A stretch of 64,000 nucleotides of DNA from Bacteroidota bacterium (lineage in GTDB: Bacteria; Bacteroidota; Bacteroidia; 2-12-FULL-35-15), in the NCBI GenBank assembly GCA_029237775.1, contig JAQZBR010000008.1, positions 1-64,000 on the forward strand. Direction: 5' to 3'. This document shows positions 6,700 to 43,092 of the stretch, one piece after another. Every line of letters begins with the position of its first letter. The stretch's first letter is position 1. Position numbers and translations under genes: made by a program. The notes under the pieces were generated by a model. That model did no database searches. It had not been told where the DNA came from and worked only from the letters and a program-made list of their open reading frames with translations.

Positions 6700-9600
6700 C
6701 TACTGAGGTAGTGGATCTGTATGTTCCAGTTTCTGCTTATTCTTTTTTCTATCCCTTATTGTCCCAAGATACCTCTGATATAACTGTCCGATTGTATCAA
6801 ACTCCTCGCGGTAAAGGATACCAACTCCCTGCGTATACGGGCCGGTAGTATAGATCTGATTATTATCATTCGCTTTGTTGAAGGCTTTTATCCTGAACTT
6901 TCCATCATCGGTAATTTTATAATCAACATTCACGTCACCCACAATATTATTTGTATTCTGATTAGCATTGTTGGTGTTATTATTTCCATTTACACCGAGA
7001 TTCCCATCTATACTGAGCTTATCGTCAAACAGCTGAGTTGATAATGCCACACCAAGCTCTTCCTTGCTGATCTCATCTCCGGGCCGGTAATTCACACCTA
7101 TATCAAAATCATTACTGATCTTACTGAGCATGTTGCTTAATTGATTGGAAAGTAATTCACTGGTATTTGAAATACCTGCTGATGCAACATCGGGCCCTGT
7201 TCCCGCACCGGTTAATTGTGGTGGAGTCACAAAACTGTTTAATATCAGTAATGAAAACACCTGTCTGTTCATCTCAGCATCAGTATTGATGTAACTCATC
7301 ACCTGTTGCCTCACACCGGCATCAACGGTTGGAATATTAATATCAAAATTTATTTCAGGTGCGAGAAGCTGATCTGTCATCATCAGCCTCAGATCCACCG
7401 GATATCTTCTTTTATATGTGCTTGACGAATCACTTGGAAAGAACGGTTTAAGTGAAGCGCGCGCCTTATACACAGCATTAATGTTCACATCCGCTTTATA
7501 CGGAATTCCACTCCACTTGATCAAACTTCCTTTTTCTATATCAAATCTTTTATTGATAATGTTTTGCAATGTGAAAAGGTAATCACCATTCTCAATCACA
7601 TAATCACCGTACATTTTAAAATCACCGGTGGAGCTGATCTTCAGTTTTATATTACCATCCCCGCGTGCCTTTATAATATCTCCTACCTTCTGGTCAAAGA
7701 TGAGCTGAACCTCTGCGTCCGGAGTCACTTCCAGGTCAAAATCCAGCATGATCCCGCCCAGCTTTACGTTATAATTATCTTTCTTTTCTGAAGTGCTGTC
7801 CTTCTTAATGAATGTTATAAAATTGTTTTCCCTCACTTCGGCCGGACCGGAAAGAGGGATATAAAACTTTGTGATCTCTGTTTTTGAAAGAAGGGAAACT
7901 TTATCCGACTTATCACTCGATGTGATTTTCTCTGTTTTAACATTTGCATCAATTCTAAGTTCATCTTTTATAAAACCAAAAATATTTACGATTCCCGAAA
8001 CATAGGCTTTCCCGTAATACAGGCTATTATCTGCTTCTGTGGTATTTAACACCATGAATTTATTCACACGAATATCATAATCGAGCTGAAAGTCCCTGAA
8101 ATTATTATGATACAGCTTTCCTGTCGCAAATGCCTTGTTGTTATTCATATCGTAAAGAACAAGATCTTCTACGCCAAAAGAATTATTTTCTATTGTTATA
8201 TCATGCGAGAAATGATACGTGGTGTTAAGATAAGATACCGTTACCTTTCTTGCATTCACATTGAGCTTTCCTGCAATCAATGGCTTTTTTACTGAACCTT
8301 TCAGCTCTACATTTCCCGAGAATTGTCCTTTAAAATCTGAAACAAAATCTTTGATGTACGGCTCAAATATTTTCATCTGGATAGCCTGGAAGTTCAACTC
8401 CATATCAAGGTTGTCATCTTTCTTCTTAGGATAATAATATCCGGAAAAGAGAATATTAGGAATTATTCCAAGTGTAAAAGCACCGTGCAGATACAATGCT
8501 TCTTTCGATTTATCCCATACACTTTCAACATCCCCGTCCCCTATCTGTTCATCATTTACATACAATGACTTAAAAGATGTATTGCTTGTAAAGATCATGT
8601 TATGATAAGCATCCTGAATGTTTGATTGTCCCGAGATCGTACCGAAAAGCTTGAGACCTATCGGCCGGGTCAACACATTAAGATTGGCAAGGTTAAAGTT
8701 GACAAGATCAAGTTTTACTTCGTCACGTTTGTTTTGTGATACTACTCCGTTTACCGAAATAGATTGTTTATCGTGCTCAAACGTCAGGTCCTTAATTGTA
8801 ATATAGGAACTATCAACCAACACCTGATTAGCTCTGTTAATATCCCATACAGAATCGGAGATAACAAACTGCGAAGGGAGGATTTTAAATTCCATAACGT
8901 TTCCCGGGTTAAAATGCAGGAATGCTTTGATATCTCCTTTATATGCGCGTGTTTTCGTTTTATTGTCCCAATCCATAGCAAACGTAACGCTATCAGAATG
9001 CGTGGAAGAATTTATCTTAAAATCAGTCAACCATAAGCTGTCAGTCAGATACAATTTGTCGGATGACATTTTCACCTGAAGCTCATCATTTTGTGTTTCC
9101 GCCTGTGCCTTCCAGTTTTGCAAAACATAATTTTCATAACCTATTCGGCCTGAAGCGCCATCAAGCACAAATTCATTACGCGAAGAATTGTAATTTCCTT
9201 TTAAAGTGGTTCCGCTTGCAATACTTAACTCCGGCATTAAAAGCCGGGTTACCGCTTCTGTCTTTTTGAATAGGATATCGTATTGGAAATTCTGATCAGA
9301 GATCGTTTTTGACCTGGAATGCTTAATATAAGAAGGGAGATAATGGCTTAGCATATTTTGCACGGATGCCGGCATTTCAAGTATCTTGAACTTACCGTTC
9401 ACTTTCGCATTACAAAAATCAGAGAACAAGCCTATGGTTTTAACTTTATTCTCTTCAGTGGAAACAAGATTGAAGCTGTTCATCTTGTAAACCTGATCAT
9501 CTTCAGTGTATATTGTATTATCAAAATTTATCCTGCCTATCAGATTATCAATATTATTTCCTGTAACATCAATGATGATCTGGGTTTTCAGGTTGGTCTT

Positions 9601-32060: not shown

Positions 32061-32090
32061 AAAAAAGAGAAGCGATGCTTCTCTTTTTTT
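32061..32090. terminator. Bidirectional rho-independent terminator
   Basis: AAAAAAGAGAAGC (32061-32073) and GCTTCTCTTTTTTT (32077-32090) form a long stem with a 3-nt loop, with A and T runs on either side so that it works in both directions. The stop codon of the convergent glycosyltransferase lies in the T run. Confidence 0.92.
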
Positions 32091-33123
32091 ATTTATGGAA
32101 TCTCTCTTTGAGATCTATTTCAGAAAATTTTCTTTTTCCGCGTAAATAAAAATCAGAAATGATCGAATGCCTGTACACGCCAGTTGTTGCGTACACCTTA
32201 ATTGCTTTTTGCAAAAGCTTCCGCTTGTTCCAGGTTTTAGAAAAGGTTGAATAAAAACTCTTATGCGCTTTCAGAATTGCCAGGAAATGTTCAAACTGTC
32301 CGGAAAGTAAAAACTTGATTCCCGCAATGCCATCAAGGACCATTCTGATAAATAATTTTGAAAGAAAATATTTTTTCGGATGGTTCTTACAAATGAGTAT
32401 AAGATTATTCCTGAAGTTCAGATAGGTTTTCTTGGGACTTGTCTTATTCAAAGTACCTCCGCCTACATGATAAACATGTGAATCGGGACAATACATCACT
32501 TTATGCCCCCTATTCTTCATGCGCCAGCAAAGATCGATCTCTTCCATATGAGCGAAGAAATCTTCATCAAATCCATTTACTTCGCGAAAGTGTGCAGCCC
32601 TTACAAACATACATGCTCCTGTGGCCCAGAAGATTTCGCGTACATCATCATACTGTCCGTTATCGGCTTCAAGCGCTTCAAGTATACGTCCGCGACAAAA
32701 AGGATAACCATATTTATCTATAAAACCACCGGCCGCGCCTGCATATTCGAAAAGTTCTTTGTTATGAAATGCCTTTATTTTGGGCTGGCATGCGGCAATC
32801 GAAGAATCTGCATCCATCAGGCGGATTACAGGTTCAAGCCACATGGGTGTAACTTCAACATCTGAATTAAGAAGCACATAATATTGTGCATTAACCTCCT
32901 TTAACGCATCATTGTAACCTTTGGCAAAGCCGCTATTGTCTTTATTCAGGATTATTCTGACAGATGGAAAACTTTTTTTAAGATATTCAACAGAGTCGTC
33001 TGTTGATGCATTATCTGCAACAATGATCTCTGAATCTGCTGAATTAAACCCAATGACATCCGGAAGAAACTGTTGAAGGAATTTTTTTCCATTCCAGTTT
33101 AAAATTACAACAGCTATCTTCAT
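32089..33123 (-). CDS. Family 2 glycosyltransferase
   Basis: A 344-residue GT-A fold enzyme without membrane segments. The N-terminus KIAVVILNWNGKKFLQQFLP with IIVADNASTDDS forms the nucleotide-sugar site, LLNSDVEVTP holds the DxD-type metal motif and HMEEIDLCWRMKNRGHKVMY the catalytic acidic region (ED-type). It is closest in layout to rhamnosyl- or N-acetylglucosaminyl-transferases of the WcaA/RfbF kind, but donor and acceptor cannot be told. It follows the GWxTD-protein gene by 8 nt on the same strand, so the two are probably co-transcribed although no functional link is evident. Confidence 0.88.
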   Translation of the reverse strand: MKIAVVILNWNGKKFLQQFLPDVIGFNSADSEIIVADNASTDDSVEYLKKSFPSVRIILNKDNSGFAKGYNDALKEVNAQYYVLLNSDVEVTPMWLEPVIRLMDADSSIAACQPKIKAFHNKELFEYAGAAGGFIDKYGYPFCRGRILEALEADNGQYDDVREIFWATGACMFVRAAHFREVNGFDEDFFAHMEEIDLCWRMKNRGHKVMYCPDSHVYHVGGGTLNKTSPKKTYLNFRNNLILICKNHPKKYFLSKLFIRMVLDGIAGIKFLLSGQFEHFLAILKAHKSFYSTFSKTWNKRKLLQKAIKVYATTGVYRHSIISDFYLRGKRKFSEIDLKERFHK

Positions 33124-33131
33124 AAGCCGGC

Positions 33132-34634
33132 TTAGCGGGGATTACCGAATGTATCGTTAGTATTACCTCCGAAATGGTCATTTGACTTTTCTGCATCAGG
33201 ATTACCGGAAGGGGTATTGCGTTTATGCAGTAGCAGATCCCAGTTAGTATTATAGATCTCACCTTTCGCAGTTGAATGGATCAGCTTGAATTTATTGGTT
33301 ACGAGGTCAGGATTATAGAAAACAAACTTTTTGTTCGACTGCTTATTCTCCGGATGCGAAACCATCAATCTTTTGTCCACCAGAGAATAATATTCCCATA
33401 TCTCGTACGGGTATGCACTGGGTTCATGATCAGCCCGGGCTCTCTGATCAGGCGGGCCATATTGAAGGTAAACCCTTCCCCTGTCTGTATCATACCCCTT
33501 CAGGCCGTATGTTCCAAACTCTTTATTGACTTTCATTACTTCTTTGTAATACTCAAGCCAGTTGATCTCCGGATTTAACGGATAACGGGTTTTCCAGAAA
33601 ACAAATAAGAATTGCTGCATCAGCTTAATATCCTTTTGCTTAAGCTGGTTTTCCATGAAATCCACCTCTGCACTGCTGGCTATTGGCCTTAAGCAGCGCA
33701 GATACGCAGAAAGTGTATCAAGGTTCTTATAGTTTCCGGCAAATGTTGAGCTGATATCTATTGTTTTAAGGTCTTCCGCAGTCATTTCAACACCTTTATT
33801 CCTTCTTTGAATAAAGCATTTTTGCTCAGCCTGCAATAAGTTATCCTTATCGCGAATTTCAATAACAAGATTATAGCTTCCGGTAGGAAGCGTTTCTATA
33901 TTAAACTCAGCCAACATGATATTTACATCGTTGGCTGTCTGCTTGTTGAATGAGCTGAAGTCGCTTAGTTTGCTTTTAGTTGCGAAATCTTCAATAAAGT
34001 AGCTAACGATCAAACGCTGTCCTTCTCCAAGGATCTTCTTTGCATTATAGAACTCAAGGTAGAATTTCAGCTTAGTGATATTTTCAGGATAGTAATTCGA
34101 AACGTACGGCATCAGGTCGAAACCGCTTTTGGTAAGAGTCCCGGGAGCAGCAGCTTTGGAATAAGACTCCAGCAGCTGAATATCGGAAGTGGAGATCACC
34201 TCCTCCGAAAAACGAATATTTACAGCCATTTTTGTGGTAAGTGGCTTTCCCCCGGGTAGATTTTTATCTATAATGGAAATCTCAACATCGTACATCCCAT
34301 TTGGTAAAGAATAACGCTGCTGATCGATAAAATTCGGGAAACCTTTGGTTGTATCAGAAATTTCCGGACTGTTAAGAGAATACTTCTGAGCATTCTTTAC
34401 TTCTCCGTTCTGAAGAAAAAGGATATTAATATCAACTGCTCCCTGGTACTTTCCAGATGAATTCTTAACGAATTTCAGGGAATTCCCTATTACTGAAAGA
34501 TAAGTTTCATAATATGGCCCTTTATTGGGAACATTAAAAGATGCTGAAGTTAAATATGCAACGACATTGGCGCAAGCTCCATTACGAACTAACAGACAAA
34601 CAGTTAGCGCAAATACAAATGAAAATTTTTTCAT
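33132..34634 (-). CDS. GWxTD domain-containing secreted protein
   Basis: A 500-residue exported protein with a signal peptide (MKKFSFVFALTVCLLVRNGACA). The C-terminal third matches the GWxTD-domain family, seen here as GLKGYDTDRGRVYLQYGPPD then PYEIWEYYSL, where the namesake Trp is replaced by Tyr. This domain is widespread in Bacteroidota and related phyla; its molecular role is not established. The N-terminal two thirds are beta-rich modules. A perfect -7 box (34678-34685) lies 43 nt upstream. The downstream glycosyltransferase is likely on the same mRNA. Confidence 0.85.
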   Translation of the reverse strand: MKKFSFVFALTVCLLVRNGACANVVAYLTSASFNVPNKGPYYETYLSVIGNSLKFVKNSSGKYQGAVDINILFLQNGEVKNAQKYSLNSPEISDTTKGFPNFIDQQRYSLPNGMYDVEISIIDKNLPGGKPLTTKMAVNIRFSEEVISTSDIQLLESYSKAAAPGTLTKSGFDLMPYVSNYYPENITKLKFYLEFYNAKKILGEGQRLIVSYFIEDFATKSKLSDFSSFNKQTANDVNIMLAEFNIETLPTGSYNLVIEIRDKDNLLQAEQKCFIQRRNKGVEMTAEDLKTIDISSTFAGNYKNLDTLSAYLRCLRPIASSAEVDFMENQLKQKDIKLMQQFLFVFWKTRYPLNPEINWLEYYKEVMKVNKEFGTYGLKGYDTDRGRVYLQYGPPDQRARADHEPSAYPYEIWEYYSLVDKRLMVSHPENKQSNKKFVFYNPDLVTNKFKLIHSTAKGEIYNTNWDLLLHKRNTPSGNPDAEKSNDHFGGNTNDTFGNPR

Positions 34635-34749: not shown

Positions 34750-34834
34750 GGAGAGCTGGCAGAGTGGTCGATTGCGGCAGTCTTGAAAACTGTTGACTGT
34801 AACAGGTCCTGGGGTTCGAATCCCTAGCTCTCCG
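34750..34834 (+). tRNA. tRNA-Ser (anticodon UGA)
   Basis: An 85-nt class II tRNA. Acceptor arms GGAGAGC (34750-34756) and GCTCTCC (34827-34833) pair perfectly with discriminator G. The anticodon stem GCAGT/ACTGT encloses loop CTTGAAA with anticodon TGA at 34784-34786. A long variable arm and the T-loop GTTCGAATCC are present. The 3' CCA is not fully encoded (GCA follows). It decodes UCA and other UCN codons. Confidence 0.97.
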
Positions 34835-35093: not shown

Positions 35094-35738
35094 ATGAAAA
35101 TAAATCATCCTCTTACTTTGTGCGGAGAAAAACATTCTTCACCAATGCACATTTGCGGTTTCTTCGATTCTGAAGATGAACGCTATGATGTAATTCTTCC
35201 ATACATAAAAGAGGGGCTTGAAAACAATGAAGAGGTTCTGAATATTCTCGAAAGCACTTCATTCACCGACCATTGCGAACGCCTGTCAAATGCAGGAATC
35301 CCGGTAGAAGAGAAAATCGCGGACAAACAGTTGAAGATTCTCTCTGCTGATGAAACATATCTGGAAGGCGGTAGTTTTGCTGCGGATAAAATGTACGATA
35401 TGGTCGAACAAACTCTGATCGCTTCTAAAGAGGCTGGATATGACAGCATTCGTGCCTGCGGTGATATGACCTGGGCATTAAGAAATCTTTCCGGGACAGA
35501 CGAATTGATTGAATATGAAGCACGCCTGAATGAATTAACCCCAAAGCATTCCTGCTCTTTGGTCTGCATGTATGATCTGAATCGTTTTAGCGGAAGGGCA
35601 CTTGCCGATGTGCTGGCTACTCACCCGTATGTTATCCTGAACGGAAAGATCCACACAAATCCGCATTATATTGAACCAATGGAATTTCTGCCTACTCTTT
35701 TGAAAAGAGGGAAACGTTCATTATTGATCGAGAGTTAA
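35094..35738 (+). CDS. MEDS (DcmR-type sensory) domain protein
   Basis: A 214-residue soluble protein that consists of one MEDS domain and little else. HICGFFDSEDERYDVILPYIKEGL opens the domain, and ACGDMTWALRNLSG is its most characteristic block, followed by CSLVCMYDLNRFSG. MEDS domains occur in DcmR-like regulators and beside histidine kinases of methylotrophs and archaea, and are proposed to bind small molecules or act like anti-sigma modulators. No DNA-binding or kinase domain is attached, so it is presumably an adaptor. It is convergent with the H-NOX operon and sits at the edge of the signalling island. It has its own -7 box. Confidence 0.85.
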   Translation: MKINHPLTLCGEKHSSPMHICGFFDSEDERYDVILPYIKEGLENNEEVLNILESTSFTDHCERLSNAGIPVEEKIADKQLKILSADETYLEGGSFAADKMYDMVEQTLIASKEAGYDSIRACGDMTWALRNLSGTDELIEYEARLNELTPKHSCSLVCMYDLNRFSGRALADVLATHPYVILNGKIHTNPHYIEPMEFLPTLLKRGKRSLLIES

Positions 35739-35773: not shown

Positions 35774-36331
35774 TCATTTAAATTCCACCCGTATCTGAAC
35801 CCGTTCATCGTTTAACGGAGTGACAGATCTCACAATTACTTTCTCTTCTTCGTTGTAATATTTCGCAATACCTTTAATTATCCCTACTGCAAGGCTCGCC
35901 ATTCTTCTTTTTGAAAAATAATCGATCATCAGCAACTGGTCGCTGACTAACGTGACATTTAAAATTGGGGGATTTGCCGTGCTGTTGAGCTTTCTCACTG
36001 CGCCATGCATTACACGTTCTGTATGTATCAGCACATCATACGTTTTCCAGTCCGGCTGTAAATAGCTTTTATATAATGTAAAAAGATCCGCCACAAGATA
36101 TTCTCCAAACCGCTCCTTCAGTTCATCTTCTCCTAAGCCGGTCATTTCTGAAGCTGCCACTAAAATACCGCCTATATCTTCAATTGGATAACTTGCGGTC
36201 ATTTCATAATCAGGCCTTGAAATCCTTGCTTTTTCTTTTAACTTTTCCCACGTTCCCAGAGGTAAGTTATGGTCGACAAATTTCTTTAACAGAAAAAAGA
36301 TCGAACCATGCACATCCGTTTCATGTCTCAT
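35774..36331 (-). CDS. H-NOX family haem protein (nitric oxide / gas sensor)
   Basis: A 185-residue stand-alone H-NOX (HNOB) domain, the normal length for bacterial members. The proximal haem ligand is H109 (VMHGAVRKL), the conserved proline P122 and the propionate-binding Y138-S140-R142 (YFSKR) occur at exactly the spacing of the Thermoanaerobacter protein (H102, P115, Y131/S133/R135). The residue at the distal tyrosine position (Y140 there) is L147, which suggests NO/CO rather than stable O2 binding. Bacterial H-NOX proteins regulate an adjacent histidine kinase or cyclic-di-GMP enzyme. This gene is last in an operon of response regulator, kinase and H-NOX, 36 nt after the kinase gene, so the kinase is the likely partner. 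Confidence 0.93.
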   Translation of the reverse strand: MRHETDVHGSIFFLLKKFVDHNLPLGTWEKLKEKARISRPDYEMTASYPIEDIGGILVAASEMTGLGEDELKERFGEYLVADLFTLYKSYLQPDWKTYDVLIHTERVMHGAVRKLNSTANPPILNVTLVSDQLLMIDYFSKRRMASLAVGIIKGIAKYYNEEEKVIVRSVTPLNDERVQIRVEFK

Positions 36332-36367
36332 AAATGATTTTTACAGAATTTTTAACATCTAAAATAT

Positions 36368-37921
36368 TTACTCAATCGGAAGATATACATTGAATGTCGC
36401 CCCCTTACCGGGCGCGCTTACTGCCGAGATATGGCCATGATGATTGTCAACGATCTTTTTACATAATGCGAGGCCGATTCCGGTACCCGCAAAATGCTGC
36501 TTTCCATGAAGCCTCTGAAACAATGAGAAGATGATCTTATCATATTGCTGCTCAAATCCGATCCCGTTGTCTTCAAATATGATCTGATAATACCGGCTGG
36601 CCATAAGGTTTTCCGGAGCGTCCGGGATTTGCGATAAGTTCACGATAGAAGAGCTCACTCTGATGATAGGATTCTCCTTTGAGAATTTGAGAGAGTTGCT
36701 GATAAGATTGGAAATAAGCTGTCCTATCTGCATTTTGTTGCCTTTTACAACAGGAAGTGAATTACTGATGATGATTGCTTTTTTCTCCTCGATAAGCAGT
36801 TCGAAATCCTGCTTTACTTCTTCAACTATTGTGTTAAGATCGACATCAACCTGTTCCACCTTCCTGCTCCCCTTTTCCTTATCTTTAGCGAGGCGACTGT
36901 AATCAAGCAGCGATCTGACAAGTTCTGCCATGCGCTGCGCAGATGCTTCGAGCTTCGCAAAATATCTTTTTACATATTCCTCATCGGAATAATTCTCCTG
37001 GATCAGCTCTGCAAACGTTTGGATTTTTCTTAATGGTTCCTGCAAATCGTGCGATGCTACATAAGCGAACTGCTCCAGTTCACTGTTCTGCATTTCCAGC
37101 TCCGCATTGTATGCGATTACTTTATCCTCTGCGATCTTTTGCTGTGTAAGATCTCTCGTTACCTTCGAAAAACCGATCACATCCCCGTTCTTATCATGCA
37201 GTGCCGTTATAGTAATGCTTCCCCAAAAACGTGTACCGTCTTTACGTACACGCCAGCCTTCCTGCGCAGCCCGCCCTGTTGTCCTTGCCTCTTCCAGCAA
37301 TCGATAAGGCATATTCACTGCGCGGTCTTCAGGCGTATAAAAAACTTCAAACTTCTTCCCCACCACTTCGGAGGCTTTATATCCTTTGATCTTTTCTGCT
37401 CCAATATTCCAGTTCTCAATTAGACCTTCCGGACTTAACAATATTATCGCATAATCCTGAACTTCCGCGATCATCTGGTGATACCTTTCTTCACTCATTC
37501 TCAGCTGATCTTCTGCTATTTTCTTCTCGGTAAGATCCCTGGTCACCTTTGAATAACCGATCACATTATGCTCCTCATCATGAATGGCAGTGATGGTGAT
37601 ACTCCCCCAGAACTTAGTGCCGTCCTTTCTTTTTCTCCAGCCTTCCTGTACGGCTCTGCCGGTTCTTCTGGCTTGCTCCATAAGTTTCTGTGGTAAACCG
37701 GAAGCAAGGTCTTCAGGAAGATAAAATATACTGAAATGTTTGCCGATGATCTCTGCTTCTGTATATCCTTTGATCTTCTGAGCTCCTTTATTCCAGTTTC
37801 TTATAATACCTTTTTCATCCATAAGAATGATCGCATAATCTTCTATTTCCTCGATCATCTTTTGGTAGAGATCGCTTCTGGTTTGGAGGCTACTTTCGCT
37901 ATCTTGTTTGGGTAGTGTCAT
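36368..37921 (-). CDS. Cytoplasmic PAS-PAS sensor histidine kinase
   Basis: A 517-residue kinase with no membrane segment. Two very similar PAS domains (about 20-132 and 146-258; each with an NWNxGAxKIKGY helix and EGWRxRKDGTxFWGSITITA sheet) look like a recent tandem duplication. They are followed by a HisKA dimerisation domain with phospho-acceptor H291 in VASHDLQEPLRKI, and an HATPase domain with N box NLISNSLKFS, DNGIGF and GTGIGLAL. The ASHDLQEPLR box is that of phytochrome-like kinases. Placed between a receiver protein (9 nt upstream) and H-NOX (36 nt downstream), it is probably the output of H-NOX and phosphorylates the receiver. Confidence 0.93.
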   Translation of the reverse strand: MTLPKQDSESSLQTRSDLYQKMIEEIEDYAIILMDEKGIIRNWNKGAQKIKGYTEAEIIGKHFSIFYLPEDLASGLPQKLMEQARRTGRAVQEGWRKRKDGTKFWGSITITAIHDEEHNVIGYSKVTRDLTEKKIAEDQLRMSEERYHQMIAEVQDYAIILLSPEGLIENWNIGAEKIKGYKASEVVGKKFEVFYTPEDRAVNMPYRLLEEARTTGRAAQEGWRVRKDGTRFWGSITITALHDKNGDVIGFSKVTRDLTQQKIAEDKVIAYNAELEMQNSELEQFAYVASHDLQEPLRKIQTFAELIQENYSDEEYVKRYFAKLEASAQRMAELVRSLLDYSRLAKDKEKGSRKVEQVDVDLNTIVEEVKQDFELLIEEKKAIIISNSLPVVKGNKMQIGQLISNLISNSLKFSKENPIIRVSSSIVNLSQIPDAPENLMASRYYQIIFEDNGIGFEQQYDKIIFSLFQRLHGKQHFAGTGIGLALCKKIVDNHHGHISAVSAPGKGATFNVYLPIE

Positions 37922-37930
37922 AATTAGGTG

Positions 37931-38365
37931 CTAATCCGGCTGATTAATTTCTGAGACGATATTGAAGATTGTCGCCAGCTTTGTTTTTAATTCCTTGGTT
38001 TTGACCGGTTTCATAATGAAATCATCAGCACCCGAACTTTTACTTTCAGTAACAACATCCTTTTCAGAAGTGGTTGAATACATCAATATTTTTGTGCTGT
38101 TCAGTCGTTCGATCTTCCGAAGATGCTTCAGACATTCAACACCATTCATCTTGGGCATATTCACGTCCAGAAAAATATAATCCGGAGTATATTCCGCATC
38201 CTTTTTCAACATTTCTATTGCCTCAACTCCACTATTGGCTGTTTTGCCCTCAACATCCCGGTTAACATTTTTCAGACACATAAGAAAGATCTCCTGATCG
38301 TCCAGGTCATCGTCAATTATTAAACACTTTTTCGAATTTGTCATTGTATTATTCAACTGCTTCAA
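37931..38365 (-). CDS. Single-domain response regulator
   Basis: A 144-residue receiver-only protein. The acidic pair is in IIDDDLDDQEIF, the phospho-acceptor is D67 (YIFLDVNMPKMNG) and the conserved Lys is in FIMKPVK; there is no output domain. Single receivers of this Rcp1-like kind work with phytochrome-like kinases as phosphotransfer shuttles. It is the first gene of the receiver, kinase, H-NOX operon. The start may be ATG 38365 or ATG 38344 (MTNSKKCLII). An FNR/DNR-type palindrome lies 56 nt upstream of 38365. Confidence 0.9.
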   Translation of the reverse strand: MKQLNNTMTNSKKCLIIDDDLDDQEIFLMCLKNVNRDVEGKTANSGVEAIEMLKKDAEYTPDYIFLDVNMPKMNGVECLKHLRKIERLNSTKILMYSTTSEKDVVTESKSSGADDFIMKPVKTKELKTKLATIFNIVSEINQPD

Positions 38366-40241: not shown

Positions 40242-40622
40242 ATGGCTTATAAAAAAATACTTCTGGTTGACGATGATGAAGATGATCAGGAAATATTCCT
40301 TTCTGCTGTGAATGAGGTTTCAGAGAATGCTGAATGCCTTCCTCTTAGTGATGCAACGGAAGCTCTTGCGAAGCTTAGTGCCAAAGAGATCGAACCGGAT
40401 GTCATATTTCTCGATCTTAATATGCCCGTGATGAACGGACAGCAATTTCTTGTTGAAATAAAAAAGCGTGAGGAACTGAAGAAAATTCCTGTGATCATCT
40501 TTTCCACTTCCTCTCACCTGGCCACGATACAGTTAATGAAGGACCTGGGAGCTGCTGATTTCATAACCAAACCCGACAAGTACGATGAGCTTGTGAAAAT
40601 TCTTTCATCGCGTATTTTGTGA
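40242..40622 (+). CDS. Single-domain response regulator
   Basis: A 126-residue receiver with no output domain: acidic cluster LVDDDEDDQEIF, phospho-acceptor D58 in VIFLDLNMPVMNG, signalling Ser/Thr in IFSTSSH and Lys110 in FITKPDK. It is clearly paralogous to the receiver at 37931-38365 (same DDQEIF and LNMPxMNG blocks). The kinase gene 22 nt downstream is the natural partner. TAATTTTG lies just before the ATG (40233-40240), too close to be a normal promoter unless the message is nearly leaderless. Confidence 0.92.
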   Translation: MAYKKILLVDDDEDDQEIFLSAVNEVSENAECLPLSDATEALAKLSAKEIEPDVIFLDLNMPVMNGQQFLVEIKKREELKKIPVIIFSTSSHLATIQLMKDLGAADFITKPDKYDELVKILSSRIL

Positions 40623-40644: not shown

Positions 40645-43092
40645 ATGGAAAGATCAACAGCTACTGAAACAGATTTATATTTCCTTTCCGGAGGAGGAGA
40701 AATGGGCGCCCTTACCAGAAAATATGACTGGTCAAAGTCAATACTTGGCAGTCCGGAATACTGGCCGCAAAATCTCAAACTTACGTTGTCGATGATGCTA
40801 TCATCAAAATTTCCGATGTTCTTATGGTGGGGAGATGATATGATTCAGTTTTACAATGATGCTTACAGGCCGAGTCTGGGAAACAATGCGAAACACCCAC
40901 AAGCCCTTGGACAAAAAGGAGAAGAATGCTGGCCGGAAATATGGGAGACTATATATCCACTTATTCAGGATGTAAGAAAAGGAAATGCAACATGGAGCGA
41001 AGATCAGCTGATCCCGATTTACAGAAATGGTCGATTAGAGGATGTTTACTGGACCTTTGGCTATAGCCCTATTTTTAATGAAGAAAGAAAAGTGGAAGGT
41101 ATCCTTGTTGTCTGCACTGAAACCACTGAAAAGATATTGGCGCAAAAGCGTATTCAGGAAAGTGAACAGCGCTTCAGAACAATGGCTGAAGGAACTGATA
41201 TTTTAATTGCTACCAGTGACGAGTCGAGCAATGCCACCTATTTTAACAAGGCCTGGTCAGTCCTGACAGGAAAACCGTTAAGCCGTCTGCTTGAGTATGG
41301 CTGGGTGGAGATCATTCATCAAGATGATCGCGATAAATTTCTCGATCTATACAAGACTTCATTCGCGAATAAGTCAGAATGGAGAGCGGAATTCCGGGTA
41401 ATAAATGCGGATGGCAATTACAGTGTTTTACTCGCAAAAGGAATTCCTCGGATCCAGACGAACGGAGAATTTGAGGGCTATATAAGCACCAGCATTGATA
41501 TCACTGACAGAAAACAAAATGAAGACAGGCTTGTAAAAAGTGAAGAAGAGACACGCAGCCTTGTAGAGAGTGCACCTTTCCCAATTGGTGTTTATCTTGG
41601 AAAAGAAATGCGCATTAAATTCGTGAATCAATCGATCATTGATGTTTGGGGAAAAGGAAATGATGTTGTCGGAAAACTATACTCAGAAGTTTTACCGGAG
41701 CTTGAAAATCAGTCGATCTATCAACAGCTTGATGACGTTTATGAAACCGGAATCCCCTTTCATGCCAAGAATCAGAGAGTGGATCTTGTTGTAAACGGCA
41801 AGCTTCAGGCCTACTATTTTAACTACAGCTTTACCCCTTTATTCGATTCAACAGGGAAAGTATATGGGGTTATGAATACAGCGGCCGAAACAACGGATCT
41901 TAACCGCGCTTTGCAACGCGTTGAACAGAGTGAGAGCAGTTTGCGTCAAACCATTTTACAAGCACCTGTGGCCATGTGCATCTTAAAGGAAGAGGATTTA
42001 AAGATCGAGTTAGCAAACGAGAGAATGTATGAATTGTGGGGCAAGACAGACCGGATCTCCGGAAAGCCTTTATTTGAAGGCTTGCCGGAAGCAAAGAATC
42101 AGGGCTTTGAAGAGCTTTTAAAAGGCGTTTACCATACTGGAAAAGCATACGTGGCGGAAGGAATTCCAGCTAACCTTCCGCGGAAACACGGAATTGAAAC
42201 TGTTTACGTGAATATGATCTACGCTCCTTACCGTGAAGAGAATGGTGTTATCTCGGGAATATTGGTTGTTGCCACAGATGTTACACAACAAATTATTGCT
42301 CACCGGGGAATTGAAGAAGTTGTTGCAAAAAGAACCAAACAGCTTGCTGAGGCCAATCAGGAACTTCAGCGCTCAAATGCAGAGTTAGCCCAGTTTGCTT
42401 ACATTGCTTCACATGACTTGCAGGAACCGCTAAGAAAGATAAGCACCTTCACGCAAATGCTTGAAACCCGGATTATGAATTCACTTGATGACCAGTCAAA
42501 GAAATATCTTAGTAAAATAAACAGCGCTTCATCACGCATGAATACACTTATCCGTGATGTATTGAGCTATTCTGAGCTGGTAAAGGATTCTCAGGTTTTT
42601 AAAGATGTTGATCTGAATCAGATTGTTGAAAATACCATTACTGATTATGAATTACTGATCGAGCAAAAGCATGCTGTGATCAATTATAAAAATCTTCCTG
42701 TTGTAGAGGCTATACCTTTACAAATGTCACAACTTGTCGGAAACATTTTAGGCAATTCATTAAAATTCGCTAAAAAAGATGTAGCGCCTTCTATTACAAT
42801 TCATGCCGCTTTAATGACAGAAGAGGAAAAGAAAAATACAAATCTTGAAGCCTCAAAGGAATATTATAAAATTCAGTTCTCGGACAACGGAATAGGATTT
42901 AAGGAAGAGCATGCTGAACAGATCTTTAATATCTTCCAGAGACTGCACCGCAAGTCAGAGTATGAAGGCACCGGAATCGGACTGGCCATGTGTAAAAAAA
43001 TTGCGCTAAATCATCATGGGGATATAAATGCGAAAGGAACTTCGGAAAACGGAGCGGTATTTAATGTTTATCTTCCTGTTAAGCAGAGTTAG
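40645..43092 (+). CDS. Soluble multi-PAS sensor histidine kinase
   Basis: An 815-residue cytoplasmic kinase. Four PAS-like domains are seen (about 25-165, 170-290, 300-420 and 430-550); the first is the variant starting YDWSKSILGSPEYWP with FLWWGDDMIQFYNDAY. A short coiled coil (AKRTKQLAEANQELQRSNAE) leads to HisKA with H590 in IASHDLQEPLRKI, then HATPase with GNILGNSLKFA, DNGIGF and GTGIGLAM. The C-terminal 230 residues are closely related to the kinase at 36368-37921. The ligands of the PAS domains are unknown. It forms a pair with the receiver just upstream. Confidence 0.92.
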   Translation: MERSTATETDLYFLSGGGEMGALTRKYDWSKSILGSPEYWPQNLKLTLSMMLSSKFPMFLWWGDDMIQFYNDAYRPSLGNNAKHPQALGQKGEECWPEIWETIYPLIQDVRKGNATWSEDQLIPIYRNGRLEDVYWTFGYSPIFNEERKVEGILVVCTETTEKILAQKRIQESEQRFRTMAEGTDILIATSDESSNATYFNKAWSVLTGKPLSRLLEYGWVEIIHQDDRDKFLDLYKTSFANKSEWRAEFRVINADGNYSVLLAKGIPRIQTNGEFEGYISTSIDITDRKQNEDRLVKSEEETRSLVESAPFPIGVYLGKEMRIKFVNQSIIDVWGKGNDVVGKLYSEVLPELENQSIYQQLDDVYETGIPFHAKNQRVDLVVNGKLQAYYFNYSFTPLFDSTGKVYGVMNTAAETTDLNRALQRVEQSESSLRQTILQAPVAMCILKEEDLKIELANERMYELWGKTDRISGKPLFEGLPEAKNQGFEELLKGVYHTGKAYVAEGIPANLPRKHGIETVYVNMIYAPYREENGVISGILVVATDVTQQIIAHRGIEEVVAKRTKQLAEANQELQRSNAELAQFAYIASHDLQEPLRKISTFTQMLETRIMNSLDDQSKKYLSKINSASSRMNTLIRDVLSYSELVKDSQVFKDVDLNQIVENTITDYELLIEQKHAVINYKNLPVVEAIPLQMSQLVGNILGNSLKFAKKDVAPSITIHAALMTEEEKKNTNLEASKEYYKIQFSDNGIGFKEEHAEQIFNIFQRLHRKSEYEGTGIGLAMCKKIALNHHGDINAKGTSENGAVFNVYLPVKQS

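Follow-up and report, generated by a model that had tools for sequence, protein, structure and literature searches.

The 64,000-nucleotide stretch of a Bacteroidota bacterium contig analysed here (the window) encodes a stand-alone H-NOX protein, probably a nitric oxide sensor, which lies directly behind a single-domain receiver and a histidine kinase; sensor and signalling pair are each of an ordinary kind. Our preferred reading, which we hold at a probability of about 0.48, is that this adjacent kinase (36368; genes are named by their first coordinate) is the main partner of the H-NOX. The receiver and the kinase are best read as an older two-gene module behind which the H-NOX was recruited in this lineage, and the H-NOX clade as a group of partner-switching NO sensors whose neighbours have repeatedly changed. 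The window contains two candidate kinase partners, and from the comparison of related sequences the other one, kinase 40645, is better supported by conservation than kinase 36368. The genes concerned are listed in Table 1.

Table 1. Genes of the H-NOX locus and of the second receiver–kinase pair, in window coordinates
Feature	Position	Strand	Basis
Stand-alone H-NOX, 185 aa	35774..36331	-	Pfam HNOB, conserved residues, AlphaFold2, PDB fold match
Soluble PAS-PAS-HisKA-HATPase_c histidine kinase, 517 aa, phospho-acceptor His291	36368..37921	-	Pfam, PAS identity, boxes, hydropathy, orthologues
Single-domain receiver, Asp60	37931..38344	-	Pfam Response_reg, orthologue alignment; listed ORF to TTG 38365
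Second single-domain receiver	40242..40622	+	65% identity to G014 receiver; alignment
Second ASHDLQEPLR multi-PAS histidine kinase, candidate H-NOX partner	40645..43092	+	Kinase tree, reciprocal hits

The H-NOX gene 35774 is genuine and encodes a predicted haem protein. Its product scored 88.7 bits for the Pfam HNOB family (PF07700), for which the cut-off is 25.5, and matched solved H-NOX proteins in the sequence search; no second HNOB match was found in the source genome. The AlphaFold2 model, obtained with a 32-sequence alignment as input, had a pLDDT of 92.6, and its best Foldseek match was the S. oneidensis H-NOX in the Fe(II)NO state (E 4.4e-12, TM 0.87), followed by the K. algicida, Thermoanaerobacter (Tt) and Nostoc H-NOX proteins and the sGC beta subunit. 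Residues H109, P122, Y138, S140 and R142 were invariant in 42 sequences, canonical Bacteroidota H-NOX among them, and aligned with Tt H102, P115, Y131, S133 and R135; H109 occupies the position of the haem ligand and is the predicted ligand here, and Y138-S140-R142 forms the YxSxR motif. The first-pass annotation had placed these residues at the Tt spacing and had reported the distal Tyr as replaced by L147 with a resulting preference for NO and CO. The alignment bore out both statements: L147 stands at the position of Tt Tyr140 and L79 at that of Tt Asn74, and the distal Tyr hydrogen-bond network of the O2-binding (Tt type) subclass is absent. From the established chemistry of H-NOX proteins, those without a distal tyrosine are expected to bind NO and CO and not to bind O2 stably. 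With both Tyr140 and Asn74 replaced by leucine, H-NOX 35774 is predicted to bind NO/CO rather than O2.

The three open reading frames, which extend from 35774 to 36331, 36368 to 37921 and 37931 to 38365, are intact and lie on the minus strand, with 9 bp between receiver and kinase and 36 bp between kinase and H-NOX. Since the orthologues favour the ATG at 38344, the receiver probably starts there and not at the TTG at 38365. The PAS, HisKA, HATPase_c and Response_reg matches were all well above the Pfam cut-offs. In kinase 36368 the two PAS domains are identical at 78 of 124 positions (63%), His291 lies in the H-box, the N, G1 and G2 boxes are intact, and in the hydropathy analysis no segment reached the level expected of a membrane helix; in the receiver the acidic cluster and the conserved Lys are retained, as is the phospho-acceptor Asp60. 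The genes are thus as they had been described, namely a receiver without an output domain, standing first, a soluble kinase with two near-duplicate PAS domains and an adjoining H-NOX. The kinase had also been called phytochrome-like, which holds for its ASHDLQEPLR motif only: Pfam detected PAS, HisKA and HATPase_c and no GAF, PHY or bilin-binding domain, and a phytochrome kinase with a PAS-GAF-PHY module was rejected. No terminator-like site was found in the 36-bp gap and, given this, the common strand and the short gaps, co-transcription of the three genes is likely and a single operon is plausible. A promoter scan detected no more sites than in shuffled sequences, and a search for a complete promoter motif of the Bacteroidota type was likewise negative.

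The three genes had been proposed to form a kept-together relay, and the synteny comparison contradicted this. Orthologues of kinase 36368 were detected beside receiver orthologues in genomes G014 (kinase 81% identical, receiver approximately 70%), G435 (kinase 79%) and G431 (kinase 72%), and in none of them did an H-NOX gene adjoin the pair, although each carries one elsewhere in the genome. A conserved three-gene operon was therefore rejected. Genome G007 shares the flanks of the window locus (32089–34634, and 40242 onward to 47735) without the block of H-NOX, kinase and receiver between them. At the edge of the block absent from G007 the window carries a tRNA gene (34750–34834, plus strand), just upstream of a gene for a MEDS-domain protein (PF14417, 160.9 bits; 35094–35738, plus strand) that is convergent to the H-NOX gene, with 35 bp between the 3' ends. 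Approximately 3.6 kb from the H-NOX gene of G435 lies a gene (L120:3993-4382, minus strand) for a single-PAS protein that shares 60% identity with the PAS of kinase 36368. At E ≤ 1e-150, kinase 36368 was found only in G000 and G014 among 395 genomes drawn from the class, and both have an H-NOX; indeed, an H-NOX was present in every genome found with kinase 36368 at an identity of at least 72%. This co-occurrence is suggestive but confounded by relatedness: it concerns few, related genomes, some of which were found through their H-NOX.

When conserved adjacency was considered, it was a different kinase that recurred beside the H-NOX. Outside the coordinates covered by the first-pass annotation (35774–38365), the window contains the second receiver–kinase pair. 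G014 has a receiver, a kinase and the H-NOX in this order, and the closest window relatives of the first two are receiver 40242, whose G014 orthologue precedes the H-NOX-linked kinase, and kinase 40645. In G431 a gap of 7 bp separates the H-NOX gene from the 40645-type kinase behind it. This kinase is truncated at the end of its contig, and reciprocal hits were the sole means of placing it; its best matches were window kinase 40645 (G000) and, in G014, the kinase linked to the H-NOX. The H-NOX of G436 lies 32 bp behind a further kinase of the 40645 type. In the kinase tree, window kinase 40645, the H-NOX-linked kinases of G014 and G436 and the orthologues from G007 and G015 formed one clade with support of 100/99, and kinase 36368 and its orthologues were separate from it (88/98). 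Adjacency of the kind known for HnoK, in which H-NOX and kinase are neighbours and are kept together, was therefore observed for the 40645-type kinase in G014, G431 and G436; kinase 36368 adjoins the H-NOX in the window and not in G014, G431 or G435. The combination of the three gene types with an output-less receiver, as in the Legionella hnox2 system, occurred in the window only and was not conserved.

In the mechanism that we favour, the cytosolic ferrous-haem H-NOX would bind NO (and CO) and not O2, and NO binding would weaken the bond to the proximal His109 and change the shape of the protein. NO-bound H-NOX would then act on kinase 36368, encoded 36 bp upstream, and alter its autophosphorylation at His291, most likely downwards; inhibition is the effect in most published cases (PMC12329717). 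The kinase would pass its phosphoryl group to Asp60 of the receiver, and the phosphorylated receiver would act on an unlinked target. The H-NOX, a member of a neighbour-changing Bacteroidota clade, would have come to its position behind the older module in this lineage. This mechanism, in which haem and NO binding, co-transcription, physical coupling, the sign of control and the target are inferred, is supported by the HNOB match, the invariant haem residues, the predicted fold, the common strand and the 36-bp gap free of a terminator-like site. Further support comes from the intact kinase and receiver residues, the conservation of the pair in G014, G431 and G435, the precedent of Legionella and the co-occurrence with H-NOX. 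Against kinase 36368 stands the observation that in relatives possessing both genes the H-NOX lies beside a 40645-type kinase (G014, G431) or alone (G435).

That observation leads to the possibility, tentative as we consider it, that the H-NOX chiefly controls kinase 40645 with receiver 40242 and that its place behind kinase 36368 reflects a rearrangement with the partner unchanged. The recurrent adjacency, the clade support and the reciprocal hits all argue for it, and a 40645-type kinase was present in 3/3 H-NOX genomes of the window's own group versus 1/33 others, a co-occurrence that is inflated by the relatedness of the genomes. However, kinase 40645 lies 4.3 kb from the H-NOX in the window and on the opposite strand, G007 has a 40645-type kinase yet carries its H-NOX elsewhere, with a SpoIIE-type gene, and G435 has an H-NOX and no 40645-type kinase at the threshold used. 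It is rather unlikely that the H-NOX lacks a dedicated kinase altogether and senses NO as a stand-alone protein whose target is unlinked and whose gene neighbours are incidental. No signalling gene adjoins the H-NOX in G430, G433, G435 and G666, and the neighbours differ in G007 and Hymenobacter, as this explanation would have it; nevertheless, a same-strand kinase within 50 bp of the H-NOX was found in 4/11 close-clade loci, which is above the expectation for random genes, although the genomes are rich in such kinases. Two further loci were not counted as linked, since in G432 the kinase ends approximately 0.4 kb upstream of the H-NOX and in G434 it points away from it. A sensor of redox state or haem availability instead of NO would be in line with the oxidation responses of the V. 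cholerae and Caulobacter H-NOX proteins (PMC7108781, PMC12329717), but the known redox switch needs Cys zinc ligands (PMC12329717). H-NOX 35774 has no Cys and hence none of the three zinc ligands, the Cys/zinc switch was rejected on this composition, and the haem-pocket residues are invariant across the clade; we regard such a sensor as highly improbable.

The H-NOX clade is narrow and its neighbours change. A single-sequence scan of genome contigs returned no relatives, but an alignment query run against 84,980 species yielded 87, and the 80 retained comprised nine close loci, approximately 69 of Hymenobacter type and two from Kapaibacterium. One further clade genome, G666, lies outside the kept loci, and in the window's own group 3/36 genomes carry the gene. 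Canonical Bacteroidota H-NOX lineages were 17–23% identical to the window protein and stood on separate branches of a tree for which the tree program issued a long-branch warning and from which we claim no deep placement. In G007 the H-NOX follows by approximately 30 bp a gene (L010:6130-8106) whose product combines a PP2C phosphatase domain of the SpoIIE type with a hydrophobic N-terminal half. At 63 loci of Hymenobacter type, a stand-alone H-NOX comes third in a same-strand row, after genes for an ECF sigma factor and an RskA-type anti-sigma factor; in the Hymenobacter loci (L054-L056 and L073-L143) the H-NOX lies near position 8001 on the plus strand, and the anti-sigma and H-NOX matches are 58–333 bp apart. 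In three species the ECF sigma/anti-sigma block lies several kb from the H-NOX and is inverted. The linkage, though strong, thus has exceptions, and it could simply reflect a gene order that changes slowly within a single genus. In one metagenome-assembled genome the H-NOX frame (L128:1801-2356) breaks after 131 codons and the match continues to residue 185, which is either a sequencing error or a broken gene. That this H-NOX clade is a plug-in gas sensor moving among kinase/receiver pairs (here and in close relatives), the SpoIIE-type phosphatase of G007 and the ECF sigma/RskA-type anti-sigma genes of Hymenobacter is an idea that we consider unlikely; control of a sigma factor, if it occurred, would add a new type of output to those of H-NOX proteins. 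Literature searches found no papers joining H-NOX and Hymenobacter, and in those combining H-NOX, ECF and sigma factor, as judged by counts and abstracts, the terms occurred only in passing.

These comparisons demonstrate that adjacency in a single genome can mislead, for the kinase recurring beside the H-NOX in relatives belongs to a different receiver–kinase pair, and this second pair changes which proteins deserve purification first. With its natural changes of neighbours, the clade could serve to study how small haem sensors come by a partner, and the Hymenobacter loci suggest, as a hypothesis open to experiment, that an H-NOX may be coupled to a sigma factor.

The view that an H-NOX beside a kinase is unusual in Bacteroidota was not supported: we met about ten canonical loci with kinase neighbours (G022, G026, G027, G031, G035, G165, G213, G225, G284, G289, G339), two of them with short ASHDLQEPLR kinases (G165, G213), and the structure of the K. 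algicida H-NOX has been solved (PDB 6bdd). Pairings of H-NOX and kinase genes occur widely, in Bacteroidota as in Proteobacteria. The window H-NOX resembles the canonical Bacteroidota proteins (K. algicida; the G035, G225 and G165 loci) in having an adjoining histidine kinase and differs from them in the low identity and separate branches given above. With the Tt H-NOX it shares the identically spaced His, Pro and YxSxR; however, the Tt protein binds O2 with Tyr140 and Asn74, and the window protein is stand-alone with Leu at both positions. As in the H-NOX/HnoK systems of Shewanella, Vibrio and Caulobacter, a stand-alone H-NOX lies beside a histidine kinase, but the window protein has no Cys/zinc site and belongs to another H-NOX lineage, and the output is a single-domain receiver and not an HnoB/HnoC-type or hybrid protein. 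The closest gene set is that of Legionella pneumophila, where hnox2 (lpg2459), the histidine kinase lpg2458 and the CheY-like receiver lpg2457 form one operon whose final target is unknown (PMC11237717, PMC8738867). The combination of a stand-alone H-NOX, a histidine kinase and an output-less single-domain receiver has thus already been published, and the window arrangement is a variant of it from another phylum, in which the H-NOX gene comes last instead of first and the receiver and kinase are conserved independently as a pair.
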